Shown here: piece after piece, positions 37,787 through 57,427 of the stretch
Numbering within the stretch: position 1 is the stretch's first letter
How the letters are laid out: each line of letters starts with the position of its first letter
From: Piscinibacter sp.
GTDB taxonomy: Bacteria; Pseudomonadota; Gammaproteobacteria; Burkholderiales; Burkholderiaceae_C
Reading direction: 5' to 3'
NCBI GenBank assembly: GCA_017983795.1
Contig: JAGOAS010000021.1
Location: 1 to 64,000, forward strand
DNA: 64,000 nucleotides
The notes under the pieces: model-generated
What the model saw: the letters and a program-made list of their open reading frames with translations, nothing else
What the model was told of the DNA's origin: nothing
Database searches by the model: none
Position numbers and translations under genes: made by a program

Positions 37787-37857
37787 CCGTTCGGGCTGAG
37801 CCTGTCGAAGCCCCACCGAGCCACTCGCTGGCCCTTCGACAGGCTCAGGGCGAACGG
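37787..37857. repeat. REP-like inverted repeat between convergent genes
   Basis: Two 24-base arms, CCGTTCGGGCTGAGCCTGTC (first 20 bases of 37787-37810) and the nearly complementary 37834-37857, pair at 22 of 24 positions around a 23-nt spacer. They fill the gap between the convergent hydrolase and M48 protease genes, where the hairpin could stop transcription from both sides. A single arm with one change recurs at 42378-42403. Motifs of this CCCTTCGACAGGCTCAGG type are dispersed in many high-GC betaproteobacterial genomes. Confidence 0.8.
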
Positions 37858-51619: not shown

Positions 51620-53427
51620 TTCGCCTCCTTCGCGCGCAGCGCCGGGTCGACGTCGAGAAACTTGTAGAACTCGCGCACGAAGGGGTTGCGCCGAAAGCCC
51701 AAGACCCAGGGCTGCATCAGGTCGGTGGCGATGCGGTGGCAGCTCAGCTTGTAGGGCACGTAGGCCACCATCAGCTTGCTCGCTTCCGCTATCACCCGCT
51801 CGCGCTCGGGGCCGTCGGGCAGCACCTTCTGCTTGTCGTAGAGCGCATCGAAGGCCGGCAGCGCGAAGCGCGCGTGGTTGGCGCCGCCCTTGTTGGGGCC
51901 GTAGGCGAGCGCGAGGAAGGTGTCGGCATCCGGCGTGGTGGCCGACCAGGCCACGCCCCACATCATCAGCTTGCCGGCGCGCGAGGCTTTCAGGTTCTCC
52001 GGCCACTTGGCCACCTTGAAGACGATCTTCAGGCCGACCGCCTTCATGCTCTTTTCCCACAGCTCGGCGAGCTGGCGGCTGGCCTGGTCGGGCTGGGTCG
52101 CGTACTCCAGCACCAGCGCCGAGCCGTCGGGTCGATCGCGCCAGCCGTCGCCGTCGCGGTCGACATAACCGTAGAGATCGAGCAGCGCGCGGGCACGCGC
52201 CGGATCGTGGTCGCTCATGCTCGTCTTGAGCGCGGGGTTGTAGCCGAAGGCCAGCGGCGCCACGGCGGTCTGCGCTGGCACCGCCTGCGCCTTGCGCACC
52301 AGGCGGATCTCCTGCTCGCTGTTGTAGGCCAGCGCGATGGCGCGGCGCAGCGCCACCTTCTCGGGCGTGTAGCCGCCCACCACCGGGTTGTCCTGGTTGA
52401 ACAGCGCGGCCAGCGTGATGTCGACCATCGGCGCGCGGTCCATGCTGATGCCGCGCTTGGCGAGGTTGGGCGCGAGCTTGTCGTTCGGAATCACCACCGG
52501 CGCAAACTCGTTGGGCAGGCGCTCCATCAGGTCGGTCTGCTCGTTCAGGAAGGACAGCCAGCGCGGCTGCGACTCCTCGATGATGGCGATCTCCACGCGG
52601 TCGAGCATGGGCATGCGGCGGCCCTTGAGCTGCGCGGCGATGGCCTGCGAGCGCGCATCGTCGGCCGGCGCCTCTTCGTCGTAGAACACCTCGCGGTAGC
52701 CGGGGTTGCGCTCGAGCACGATGCGCGAACTGCGCCGCCATTCGGCGAGGCGGAAGGGGCCGGTGCCCACCGGGTGCTCCATGATCTTCTCGCCGTAGGC
52801 CTCGACCACCTCGCGCGCCAGCGCGCCGAAGTTGCCGGCGTCGGTCATCACGTCCTGGTGGAAGCGCGGCGAGGGTTCGGCCAGCCGCACCTGGAAGGTG
52901 TAGCGATCGAGCGCGCGCAGGCCCTCGACCTCCTGCCCGTAGGGGAAGGGCTTCTTGTCCTTCAGCACCTGCTGTCGCAGCTCCGACAGGCCGAGGATCT
53001 TGGCCGCCTCCAGCCGGTAGAGGTTGGGGCTGTTCCAGCGCGGGTCGTAGTGGCGCTTGAGGCTGTAGACGTAATCCTCGGCGACCAGCTCGCGCTTCCT
53101 GCCCCTGAAGGCCGGGTCGTCGGCGAAGTAGATGCCGGGCTTGATGCGGAAGGTGAAGGTGCGGAAGTCGGCGCTGATCTGCGGCATCTCGGCCGCGGTA
53201 TTCGGCTTGAGCTTGAAGGGCCGCGCGAGGAAGTCGAAGGCCAGCGGCGTCTCGATGATGCCGGCCATCACGGTGCGCGAATACAGGTCGGAGATCTGCG
53301 CCGGGTCGAAGCCGGTCTCGGCGATCGGGAAGGCGTAGCGCAGCACGCGCGGCGCGGCATCGGCCGCAGCGGCACCGCCATGGAGGAGCGAAAAGATCAG
53401 GGCGGCAGCGAGGGCGCGAACAGACAT
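51616..53427 (-). CDS. ABC transporter solute-binding protein, family 5 (first in row)
   Basis: A 603-aa receptor with a Sec-type signal peptide (MSVRALAAALIFSLLHGGAA, cut before ADAAP). It has the same architecture as the two downstream paralogues, including VLRYAFPIAETGFDPAQISD, FTFRIKPGIYFADDPAFRG, HPVGTGPFRLAEWRRSS and LDLYGYVDRDGDGWRDRPDG. The ATG at 53427 fits the signal peptide; an earlier in-frame ATG at 53493 would collide with the divergent permease start. It opens the receptor operon, divergent from the permease operon across 64 bp, so both are likely controlled from one promoter region. Confidence 0.9.
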   Translation of the reverse strand: MSVRALAAALIFSLLHGGAAAADAAPRVLRYAFPIAETGFDPAQISDLYSRTVMAGIIETPLAFDFLARPFKLKPNTAAEMPQISADFRTFTFRIKPGIYFADDPAFRGRKRELVAEDYVYSLKRHYDPRWNSPNLYRLEAAKILGLSELRQQVLKDKKPFPYGQEVEGLRALDRYTFQVRLAEPSPRFHQDVMTDAGNFGALAREVVEAYGEKIMEHPVGTGPFRLAEWRRSSRIVLERNPGYREVFYDEEAPADDARSQAIAAQLKGRRMPMLDRVEIAIIEESQPRWLSFLNEQTDLMERLPNEFAPVVIPNDKLAPNLAKRGISMDRAPMVDITLAALFNQDNPVVGGYTPEKVALRRAIALAYNSEQEIRLVRKAQAVPAQTAVAPLAFGYNPALKTSMSDHDPARARALLDLYGYVDRDGDGWRDRPDGSALVLEYATQPDQASRQLAELWEKSMKAVGLKIVFKVAKWPENLKASRAGKLMMWGVAWSATTPDADTFLALAYGPNKGGANHARFALPAFDALYDKQKVLPDGPERERVIAEASKLMVAYVPYKLSCHRIATDLMQPWVLGFRRNPFVREFYKFLDVDPALRAKEAK

Positions 53428-53491
53428 CACGGGAATTCTCGGGGTCTCCTGCACGCCGAGTCTATCGGCGCAGGCCCTAGACTCGCGCCTC

Positions 53492-54430
53492 ATGGCCGCT
53501 TACCTGATCCGCCGCCTGTGGCAGATGATCCCGACGCTCGCCGGCGTCGTGCTGCTGGTGTTCTTCCTCTTCAAGGCTTTCGGCGGCGATCCGGCCGAGA
53601 TCCTCGGCGGGCTGTCGGCCTCGCCCGAGCAGATCGAGGCGATCCGCCAGCAGCTCGGCCTCGACAAGCCGTGGTGGACGCAGCTGGGCATCTTCCTGAA
53701 GCAGATCGTCAGCTTCGACTGGGGCCGCAGCTGGGCCACCAACGAATCCGTGGCCAACCTGTTCGCCACGCGGCTGCCGGCCACGCTGACGGTGATGGTG
53801 CCCATCCTCATCCTCGACACCCTGCTGGCGATTCCGATCGCGCTGCTGGTGGCCTACCTGCGCGGCTCGCTGACCGACCGCACGATCATGGTGGCCACCA
53901 CCATCGCGCTGTCGATCTCCTTCCTCGTCTACGTGATCATCGGCCAGTATCTGTTCGCCTTCCAGCTCGGCTGGTTCCCGGTGCAGGGTTGGACGGACAG
54001 CGTGGCCACCAACCTGCTCGTCTATACGCCGCTGCCCGTGCTGCTGGCGGTGATGGTGGGCCTGGCGCCGCAGACGCGCCTGTATCGCACCTTCTTCCTC
54101 GACGAGATCGGCCAAGACTACGTGCGCACCGCGCGCGCCAAGGGCCTCACCGAGCCGCGCATCCTGCTCACGCACGTGATGCGCAACGCGCTCATCCCCA
54201 TCCTCACCAACGTGGCGGTATCGCTGCCGGGCATCTTCGTGGGCTCCTTCCTGATCGAGGTGTTCTTCTCCATCCCCGGCCTGGGCCGCGAGGTGCTGCT
54301 GGCGGTAAACCGCAGCGACTACCCGGTGATCCAGGCGGTGACGATCTACCTGGCGGTGATCACCATGGTGGTGAATCTCGCCACCGACGTGCTCTACAAG
54401 CTGGTCGACCCGCGGGTGGTGCTGAAATGA
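53492..54430 (+). CDS. ABC transporter permease (DppB/OppB type)
   Basis: A 312-aa inner-membrane permease with six helices. It starts MAAYLIRRLWQMIPTLAGVVLLVFF, the standard N-terminus of OppB-type subunits. The cytoplasmic EAA-like loop is LDEIGQDYVRTARAKGLTEPRILLTHVMRNALIP, which docks on the ATPase. It pairs with the permease at 54681 and the fused ATPase. It is divergent from the three receptor genes. Confidence 0.94.
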   Translation: MAAYLIRRLWQMIPTLAGVVLLVFFLFKAFGGDPAEILGGLSASPEQIEAIRQQLGLDKPWWTQLGIFLKQIVSFDWGRSWATNESVANLFATRLPATLTVMVPILILDTLLAIPIALLVAYLRGSLTDRTIMVATTIALSISFLVYVIIGQYLFAFQLGWFPVQGWTDSVATNLLVYTPLPVLLAVMVGLAPQTRLYRTFFLDEIGQDYVRTARAKGLTEPRILLTHVMRNALIPILTNVAVSLPGIFVGSFLIEVFFSIPGLGREVLLAVNRSDYPVIQAVTIYLAVITMVVNLATDVLYKLVDPRVVLK

Positions 54431-54468
54431 GCTTGCCTTTGATGAGGGTCGCCGAACAGACGTTGGCG

Positions 54469-54545
54469 CACGGCGCGGGTCGGGCGGGCTGGGCTGTGCG
54501 CGGCCCGATATCCGTGCTCGCCCAGCCCGCCCGACCCGCGCCGTG
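54469..54545. repeat. Long hairpin A with conserved loop
   Basis: A perfect 25-bp stem pairs 54469-54493 with 54521-54545 (arm begins CACGGCGCGGGTCGGGCGGG). The 27-nt loop (54494-54520) begins CTGTGCGCGGCCC and ends CCGTGCTCG. The identical loop sequence occurs in opposite orientation in hairpin B, but the stems of A and B are unrelated. The element lies 38 bp after the first permease gene and inside its operon, so it would be transcribed. Confidence 0.9.
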
Positions 54546-54586
54546 TCACCGCTCGCTGACTCAGCGCGCGCCCCTGGTTGCCGCTT

Positions 54587-54659
54587 CGGCGAGGCCGGGG
54601 CCTGCCGGTCGAGCACGGATATCGGGCCGCGCACAGGCCGGCAGGCCCCGGCCTCGCCG
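54587..54659. repeat. Long hairpin B with the same loop inverted
   Basis: A perfect 22-bp stem pairs 54587-54608 with 54638-54659 (arm begins CGGCGAGGCCGGGGCCTGCC). Its 29-nt loop (54609-54637) contains the exact reverse complement of the 27-nt loop of hairpin A. It ends 21 bp before the second permease start. In one RNA the two loops could pair with each other over 27 bases. It could separate expression of the two permeases or stabilise the upstream part of the mRNA. Confidence 0.9.
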
Positions 54660-54680
54660 TGCTCGGTGGTGGAGCCGGAC

Positions 54681-55724
54681 ATGAGCGCCGTCCTCACGAT
54701 CAACGGCGCCACCGCGCGCTCCGAAGGCGTGTGGGCCGCGGCCTGGCGCCGCTTCAAGGGCGACCGCGTCGGCATGGTGTCGTTGGGCCTGGTCGCCGCC
54801 TTCGTGCTGCTGATGCTGGCCGCGGCGCTCAAGCTGGTGGCCGGCGACTGGCAGCGCGAGATCGGCGTGCCCGACGCGCCGCCCACTTTCATGGGCCCGG
54901 CGAAGAAGGAAGCCGCGAGCGCGATCCCCGTGCCCACCGGCCCGAACGTCGACATCTCGGCGGTCGACCCGCTCGCGCCGCGTTATGCCGAGTGGGCCGA
55001 GCTGGCCAAGAAGTACGAGACCGCGCAGGAGATCAGACACGAGACCCTGCCCTTCGGCGGCGACCGCCTCGGCCGCGACGTGCTCGCCAAGGCCATCAAG
55101 GGCGCGCAGATCTCGGTATTCGTCGGCGTGGCCGCGGCGCTGGTGGCCACGCTGATCGGCACCGTGCTGGGCGCGCTGGCCGGCTTCTTCGGCGGCCGCA
55201 TCGGCGACTTCCTCGAGTGGCTCTACAACGTCTTCACGTCCATCCCCGGCATCCTGCTGATCTTCGCCTTCGCGGCGGTGGCCGGGCGCGGCGTGCAGTC
55301 GGTGGTGCTGATCCTCGGGCTGACCGGCTGGACGGGCATCTACCGCCTGGTGCGCGCCGAATTCCTCAAGCATTCGGTGCGCGAGTATGTGCGCGCCGCC
55401 GAGGCGATCGGCGCGAGCGCGCTGTCGCGCATCTTCCGCCACATCCTGCCCAACGTGAGCCACGTGATCCTGGTGCAGCTGTCGATCCTGGTGGTCGGCT
55501 TCATCAAGGCCGAGGTGATCCTCTCCTACCTCGGGCTGGGCGTGAGCGTCGACCAGGTCAGCTGGGGCACCATGCTCGCCGAGGCGCAGAGCGAGCTCAT
55601 CCTCGGACACTGGTGGCAGCTCGCCGCGGCGACGGCCTTCATGGCTGTGTTCGTCACCGCCTTCTCGCTGATGACCGACGCGCTGCGCGACGCGCTCGAT
55701 CCCAAGCTGCGCGGAGCCGAATGA
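54681..55724 (+). CDS. ABC transporter permease (DppC/OppC type)
   Basis: A 347-aa permease with an N-terminal OppC-like segment (AAAWRRFKGDRVGMVSLGLVAAFVLLM). A soluble periplasmic loop of about 110 residues follows, then five helices. The motif FGGDRLGRDVLAKAIKGAQIS and the EAA-type loop REYVRAAEAIGASALSRIFRHILPN are typical. The ATG at 54681 is chosen on family pattern; the longer frame upstream reads through hairpin B and is not protein-like. Its stop overlaps the ATPase start by 4 bases. Confidence 0.93.
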   Translation: MSAVLTINGATARSEGVWAAAWRRFKGDRVGMVSLGLVAAFVLLMLAAALKLVAGDWQREIGVPDAPPTFMGPAKKEAASAIPVPTGPNVDISAVDPLAPRYAEWAELAKKYETAQEIRHETLPFGGDRLGRDVLAKAIKGAQISVFVGVAAALVATLIGTVLGALAGFFGGRIGDFLEWLYNVFTSIPGILLIFAFAAVAGRGVQSVVLILGLTGWTGIYRLVRAEFLKHSVREYVRAAEAIGASALSRIFRHILPNVSHVILVQLSILVVGFIKAEVILSYLGLGVSVDQVSWGTMLAEAQSELILGHWWQLAAATAFMAVFVTAFSLMTDALRDALDPKLRGAE

Positions 55725-57427
55725 TGTTGCTGAGCATCCAGGATCTTCGCGTGCGCTTCCGCATGGGGCGCGGGCCGAACGTGGCGTATGCCGAAGCCGT
55801 CGGCCGCGGCGACGCCGGCGTGAGCTTCGAGGTGCCCGAGAACGGCACCGTGGCGCTGGTGGGCGAGTCGGGCTCGGGCAAGAGCGTCACCGCCATGTCC
55901 ATCCTCAACCTGCTGCCGGAGAACGCCGAGCGCCAGGGCACGATCCGCTTCCAGGGCCGTGACCTGCTCGCCGCCTCGCTGGCCGAGCTGCAGGCGCTGC
56001 GCGGCAAGGACATCGCCTGCGTGTTCCAGGACCCGATGACCTCGCTGAACCCGGTGTTCACGATCGGCCACCAGCTGTGCGAGCCGATGCAGCGGCACCT
56101 GGGCCTCACGCGCCGCCAGGCGATGGAGAAAGCCGAGGCGCTGCTCGCCGAGGTGGGCCTGCCCGAGCCGAAGCGGCGCCTCGCGGCGCACCCGCACGAG
56201 CTCTCCGGCGGCCAGCAGCAGCGCGTGATGATCGCGATGGCGCTGGCCTGCGAGCCGCGCCTGCTGATCGCCGACGAGCCGACCACCGCGCTGGACGTGA
56301 CCATCCAGCGCCAGATCATCGAGCTGCTCGCGAGGCTGAAGGACAAGCACCGCATGAGCATGCTGTTCATCAGCCACGACCTCGGCCTGGTCGGCGAGAT
56401 CGCCGACCGCGTGGTGGTGATGCGCCAGGGCACGGTGCGCGAGCAAGGCGCGGTGGCCGACATCTTCGCGCGCCCGCAGGACGCCTATACGAAGGCGCTG
56501 CTGGCCTGCCGGCCGACGCTCGATCAGCGCGGCGCGCGGCTGATGGTGATCGACGACCACATCGCCGGCAACGGCGCGGCCGCCGAGCGCGTCGCCAAGG
56601 CGAAGGATCCCGAAGCGCCGGTGGTGCTGCAGGCCAGCGACGTCACCAAGAGCTTCTGGATCCGCAGCGGCGTATTCGGGCGGCGCGAGTTCCAGGCCGT
56701 CAGGGGCGCGAGCTTCACGCTGCGGCGCGGCCACACGCTGGGCATCGTCGGCGAATCGGGCTCGGGCAAGACCACGCTGGGCCTCACGCTGCTGCGCCTG
56801 CACGAGCCCGCCGGCGGCCCGGCGGGCGGCAAGGCAGTATTCGATGGCCGCGATCTGCTCGCGCTCAGCCGCGAGCAAATGCTGCCCATGCGCCGGCGCA
56901 TCCAGGTGGTGTTCCAGAACCCCTACGCCTCGCTCAACCCGCGCTTCACCGTGGCGCAGACGCTCACCGAGCCGATGGCCATCCACGGCATCGCCGCAAG
57001 CGACGCCGAACGCACGCAGCGCGCGCGGGCGCTGCTCGCCAAGGTCGGCCTCGACGAGGGCGCGCTCAACAAATATCCGCACGAGTTCTCCGGCGGCCAG
57101 CGCCAGCGCATCGCGATCGCGCGCTGCCTGACGCTGGAGCCCGAGGTGCTGGTGCTCGACGAGGCGGTGAGCGCGCTCGACGTCTCGGTACAGGCGCAGG
57201 TGCTCAATCTCCTGAAGGACCTGCAGGACGAACTCGGCCTCGCCTACATCTTCATCAGCCACGACCTCGCGGTGGTGCGCTTCATGGCCGATGAGGTGCT
57301 GGTGATGAAGGACGGCCAGGTGGTGGAGCAGGCCGGCGTCGAGCAGATCCTGGCGGCGCCGCGCGAGGAGTACACGAAGCGGCTGCTGGGGGCGGTGCCG
57401 CGGGGGTACGTGGCGGCAACGGCTTGA
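55721..57427 (+). CDS. ABC transporter ATPase, fused DppD-DppF type
   Basis: A 568-aa protein with two complete ATPase domains in one chain, the YejF/GsiA arrangement. Domain 1 (about 1-265) has [25 protein letters not shown] and [14 protein letters not shown]. Domain 2 (about 310-555) has [26 protein letters not shown] and [14 protein letters not shown]. Each has the H-loop His in ISHDL. The domain-2 Walker B Glu is followed by Ala rather than Pro, a common variant. It powers the two permeases above and ends the operon. Confidence 0.95.

Follow-up and report, generated by a model that had tools for sequence, protein, structure and literature searches.

What is a pair of hairpins that have different, perfectly paired stems and one and the same loop in opposite orientation doing between two permease genes? 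The question was raised by a sequence-only reading of the window, by which we mean the whole 64,000-nt stretch of Piscinibacter sp. DNA analysed here. The placement between two permease genes is correct, as both neighbours on the forward strand are ABC permeases matching the Pfam family BPD_transp_1. The top NCBIfam matches of the upstream gene (53492..54430) are B-type permeases of Opp/Dpp/Nik, all under the cut-off, and the start of the downstream gene (54681..55724), the ATG at 54681, was placed from relatives. The TGA of the upstream permease (54428-54430) overlaps an ATG (54427-54429), and the same overlap is present in relatives. A spacer (54431..54468, forward strand) leads from this stop codon to hairpin A (54469..54545, forward strand), whose arms at 54469-54494 and 54520-54545 are 100% complementary; the stem is thus perfect as described earlier, with a length of 26 bp rather than 25 bp. 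Above it are the bulges TGT and TC, an upper 6-bp helix (54498-54503/54512-54517) and the apex CCCGATAT at 54504-54511. An inter-hairpin spacer assigned to neither strand (54546..54586), weakly conserved across copies, is followed by hairpin B (54587..54659, reverse strand), for which the 22-bp perfect stem was confirmed (arms 54587-54608 and 54638-54659, 100% complementary) and whose loop is that of hairpin A inverted, with the apex at 54619-54626 reading CCCGATAT on the minus strand. The stretch 3' of hairpin B (54660..54672, forward strand) is TGCTCGGTGGTGG, of which CTCGGTGGTGG is found again in copy L002; the end of the element is approximate.

The inverted loop sequence shared by the two hairpins is exact over 26 nt, at 54495-54520 on the forward and 54610-54635 on the reverse strand, and reaches the 27 nt originally claimed when one further shared base is counted. 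With up to 3 mismatches allowed, it had no match in 100 shuffles. Hairpins A and B together make up a single imperfect inverted repeat with arms of 76 nt (79%), and the opposite orientation of the loops follows from their being the halves of this repeat. Each loop folds internally into the bulge TGT, a 6-bp helix GCGCGG/CCGTGC with one G-U pair, an 8-nt tip and the bulge TC, so that what the hairpins share is the apex CCCGATAT with an invariant 8-nt tip rather than an open 27-nt loop. The proposed 27-bp kissing contact is therefore unlikely, because the internal fold leaves 8 complementary tip bases. The 261-nt region 54425-54685 has a predicted fold of -186.3 kcal/mol (z -9.4), which was equalled by none of 200 shuffles. 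Between 54300 and 54800 no sigma-70-like promoter was found, and a scan for intrinsic terminators with loops of 3-8 gave no site; inspection by eye showed no T run after either of the hairpins. Rfam returned for 53000-56000 only two microRNA-precursor matches, with 30 and 28 bits against gathering thresholds of 83 and 78.

The loop is not confined to the window, and a search of this genome and its relatives gave a multi-copy family. Eleven distinct sites were counted in the own genome (4.24 Mb in 45 contigs), with both hairpins in eight copies (L001-L008) and partial copies in three (L009, L012, L015). Piscinibacter aquaticus (G005) has four sites (L035, L040, L041, L042), and the pairs L009/L042 and L012/L035 are orthologous between the two genomes, which leaves 13 independent sites. 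In L015 the left half of hairpin A is fused via one loop to the apparent right half of hairpin B; the copy is likely a recombination product. Copy L008 has an N in its downstream gene, and the gene start is called about 230 bases past the first copy, which suggests an assembly gap. The exact core of the element is found in 2 of 8 genomes of the genus. A covariance model, run with stricter filters, matched 1 of 200 genomes of the bacterial family, namely the own genome, in a sample that evidently did not include G005. An exact-pattern search of genome contigs gave P. aquaticus only (4 stretches), with the own and near genomes possibly outside the search, and a DNA search of 40 relatives matched six, i.e. 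G000, G005 and four with one short match each (27-45 bases). The exact core was absent from viral contigs, and plasmids gave no match to the element. A literature search with few subscription journals in its scope returned no description of such a twin-hairpin element, which is apparently an undescribed small dispersed repeat of two related bacteria.

The element is present in 0 of 62 homologous junctions, and the loop core is missing from all 62 stretches. Of these, 14 correspond to the site in the window and to livH/livM, with seven relatives for either, and 48, of about 225 bases each, to the other sites. Not all 62 are clean empty sites: among the 48, the next gene differs in at least four (L152, L153, L159, L187), L170 is a second, paralogous match, and L156, L170, L173 and L178 contain other insertions. 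L176 and L177 are the own genome's element-free counterparts of G005 sites. Since none of the 62 homologous junctions holds the element, its copies are insertions, and the suggestion of a mobile palindromic element is supported by both the dispersed copies and the element-free junctions.

The flanking genes were named by Pfam (gene labels such as dppB, dppC, liv and ugp are used here as shorthand, not as curated assignments). They are branched-chain-type permease pairs (L002, L015), NnrS and SirB (L003), an acyltransferase and a cytidylyltransferase (L004), an AMP-ligase and a phosphorylase (L005), a hydrolase and a PHA-granule protein (L006), QueF and an aminotransferase (L008), oxidoreductase parts (L009), an amidase and an unmatched protein (L012), two ABC ATPases (L040) and two permeases (L041); neither flanking protein of L007 had a Pfam match. 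At 11 of the 13 independent sites the genes are co-directional and, in at least one relative, overlapping or no more than 20 nt apart. The exceptions are L005, with co-directional genes, a wider gap and the element reversed, and L006, with convergent genes. Of the 53 neighbouring pairs that a crude gene caller gives for the window, 20 are co-directional and at most 20 nt apart (binomial p 0.0007 for 11/13 versus 20/53). Among the 12 sites with co-directional genes, hairpin A precedes hairpin B along the genes in 11 (one-sided p 0.003). The element has been dispersed by insertion, with a preference for junctions and a prevailing orientation relative to transcription.

The 24-bp stem of hairpin A lies 27-43 nt past the upstream stop (11 copies measured), and the next ATG lies 18-39 nt past the stem of hairpin B (9 copies retaining hairpin B). 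Eleven copies were tested for a leftover start codon, of which L009 and L042 represent one orthologous site; in 9 of them a start codon persists at the upstream stop or a few bases from it, and the downstream gene starts at a separate ATG beyond the element. This implies that insertion duplicated at least the start codon. By eye, the upstream spacers resembled degenerated versions of the start of the following gene. A longer target-site duplication is not supported (permutation p 0.69 with 11 copies; tighter test p 0.27-0.51 with 9 copies).

The conserved loop with freely varying, compensated stems had been taken as a signature of a structured element under selection or of a mobile palindromic element. 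The invariant apex and the two-sided changes stand; the stems do not vary freely and fall into two classes, A type and B type. Pairs were counted in 24 of 27 hairpins, leaving out L012B, L015A and L042A; these are rearranged or less well paired, and their inclusion would lower the pairing. Of 720 pair cells 96.5% are paired, compared to 31-42% in slid versions, and none of the five pairing measures was reached in any of 500 shuffles. The stems of the copies are not identical: two-sided change is seen at 16 of 30 pairs, a contrast that is largely one of A type versus B type and, the copies being related, represents fewer events than cells. Within types, two-sided differences outnumber one-sided ones (231 versus 139 for A and 199 versus 56 for B, as pairwise sums). 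One pair of the upper helix varies two-sidedly (15 GC, 8 CG), and the 8-nt tip does not differ among the 24 aligned hairpins.

If the twin hairpins were a cis-acting RNA element under selection at junctions of operons, their location would be a mark of their function; the complementary tips CCCGAUAU and AUAUCGGG would kiss, and the compact double hairpin so formed would uncouple translation or make the upstream message more stable. The junction and strand preference, the identical tips, the strong fold and a region 54300-54800 with no sigma-70-like promoter or terminator-like site are all consistent with this. The mismatches of the stems argue against it. Selection on the transcript only should leave more G-U intermediates, and of 576 stem cells on the strand reading CCCGATAT, 553 are Watson-Crick, 14 A-C, 2 G-T and 7 other (A-C excess p 0.004 with related copies counted as independent), and on the A-to-B strand there are 11 A-C and 5 G-U, with no lean to G-U on the transcript strand (p 0.21). 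This scarcity argues against RNA selection as the only cause of the matched arms, and for this element the compensated stems are poor evidence of such selection. Also against an RNA element, just two sites are common to both host genomes, it splits permease pairs expected at 1:1, and 3 of the 11 own-genome copies (the partial ones) lack two intact hairpins. Taken together, we consider an RNA element unlikely as the primary explanation. Template switching between arms has been proposed to yield both two-sided changes and loop inversions (PMC8794818), and it fits the matched arms better than transcript-only selection.

Random insertion with survival at junctions alone, because genes or promoters break elsewhere, would explain the placement in so far as a tight junction presumably tolerates an insert when stop and start are both retained. 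However, only 50 of the 4961 intergenic bases in the window lie in junctions of at most 20 nt (crude gene caller), the looser intergenic space should tolerate inserts too, and the orientation is left unexplained, which makes this account quite improbable. Local duplication or a chance palindrome, which the single imperfect inverted repeat might bring to mind, can practically be dismissed in view of the dispersed copies and the zero loop matches in shuffles.

The twin hairpins are thus, in our judgement, probably a non-autonomous mobile palindromic element of about 200 bp that has spread in its own species and in P. aquaticus, in which template switching keeps the arms matched and any effect on the transcript is secondary; the multiple copies, the invariant structured apex and the matched stem arms are observed. 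Each hairpin, folded as single-strand DNA, would be the substrate of the mobilising enzyme, which may recognise the fixed apex and bulges and require of the stem merely that it pairs. The arms would stay matched largely through template switching between them in replication. Insertion would duplicate at least the start codon, such that neither gene is lost. At the level of the transcript, the hairpins would set apart genes that once adjoined, ending stop/start coupling, and would probably slow exonucleases from the 3' side.

As for the enzyme, the Y1 transposase family PF01797 had no member in the own genome and none in G005 (77% complete), and mobilisation by a resident Y1 enzyme was set aside because neither host gave a match; one of the 8 genus genomes (G004) has PF01797, and the element core is absent from it. 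The outer end CCACCGAGCGCGGC had 86 matches with at most 1 mismatch, compared to 30 for a reversed control, and by eye no partner element sharing this end was seen in six loci (L223, L225, L234, L236, L237, L246) read from the 86 matches in addition to known copies.

Among known systems, REPINs, or REP doublets (BIMEs), are likewise small, extragenic inverted doublets of palindromes, and REP hairpins with compensatory changes are described as being moved in trans (PMC3116915, PMC2817692). The present element differs from REPINs in that it conserves an invariant tip as well as a foot; a GTAG-like head is absent (GTAG in 0 of 24 aligned units), and 14 of the 24 units have exactly GAGCGCGGC as their foot. 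REPs are given as usually having more than 100 copies (PMC2817692), compared to 11 sites here, and PF01797 gave no cognate RAYT, a Y1 tyrosine transposase, in the two host genomes; a RAYT may have been lost after the element spread. The YPAL or RU-2 element of Yersinia, described as 168 bp long with internal inverted repeats, not A+T-rich, and compared at empty and filled sites (PMC2229807), is alike in these internal repeats, base composition and empty and filled sites, the likeness being one of description. YPAL target duplications are reported as 3-26 bp (PMC2229807), whereas here only the start codon appears twice and anything longer is not significant. By analogy, the element may work like REPINs or YPAL, although a defining REPIN feature was looked for and not found. 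ERIC/IRU and the Correia/NEMIS MITEs are also small inverted-repeat elements, and ERIC is described as co-transcribed with its neighbours and linked to mRNA stability (PMC2229807). Most MITE-type small elements are characterised there by TA ends and A+T-richness (PMC2229807); in contrast to the ERIC, RUP and Correia type, the present element is G+C-rich. No TA ends were seen by eye, the exact ends of the element being approximate. The Efa-1 and Pae-1 families of other species likewise have an adjacent stem-loop pair (PMC2267715) and are likened by description. The element resembles these small palindromic elements, but its stop/start placement is unusually consistent.

Other palindromes were seen in and around such junctions. 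A second, unrelated hairpin family with the core TCACTGCGTTCGCTGCCCCC has 11 exact matches (L210-L220) in 4 of 8 congeneric genomes, and occurs in L173, L178, L095 and L082. A TGA, counted regardless of frame, lies within 30 bases upstream of 10 of the 11. Related copies are found at junctions treated above, namely the window site in G002, livH/M in G007, livG/F in G003 and ugpA/E in G001, several of them flanked by TGA/ATG on both sides. Repeats similar to this family presumably occur in Comamonadaceae. In L213 and L215 the right arm of the last hairpin adjoins the downstream ATG and the left arm is its inverse, as if one of the two arms had been copied from the target. At two homologous junctions of G003 (L156 and L170), other insertions or unrelated sequence directly follow the start codon. 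The window also contains at 37787-37857 a 34-nt inverted repeat (85%) of the type CCGTTCGGGCTGAGCCTGTCGAAG, and a similar stretch lies at the window junction in G007 (L077).

A tentative possibility, which we regard as short of likely, is that small palindromic elements target stop/start junctions of operons as their niche. Both families would then enter at or beside TGA/ATG, often with a start codon remaining on either side, and split coupled genes without damage to them, the apex being read by an undescribed non-Y1 enzyme. Two-sided changes in stems are commonly accepted as proof of RNA selection; the twin hairpins provide a case with element-free sites in which such changes need not mean RNA selection. 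If junction targeting is real, these elements would act as naturally occurring uncouplers of genes linked in translation, with which the value of coupling could be tested simply.
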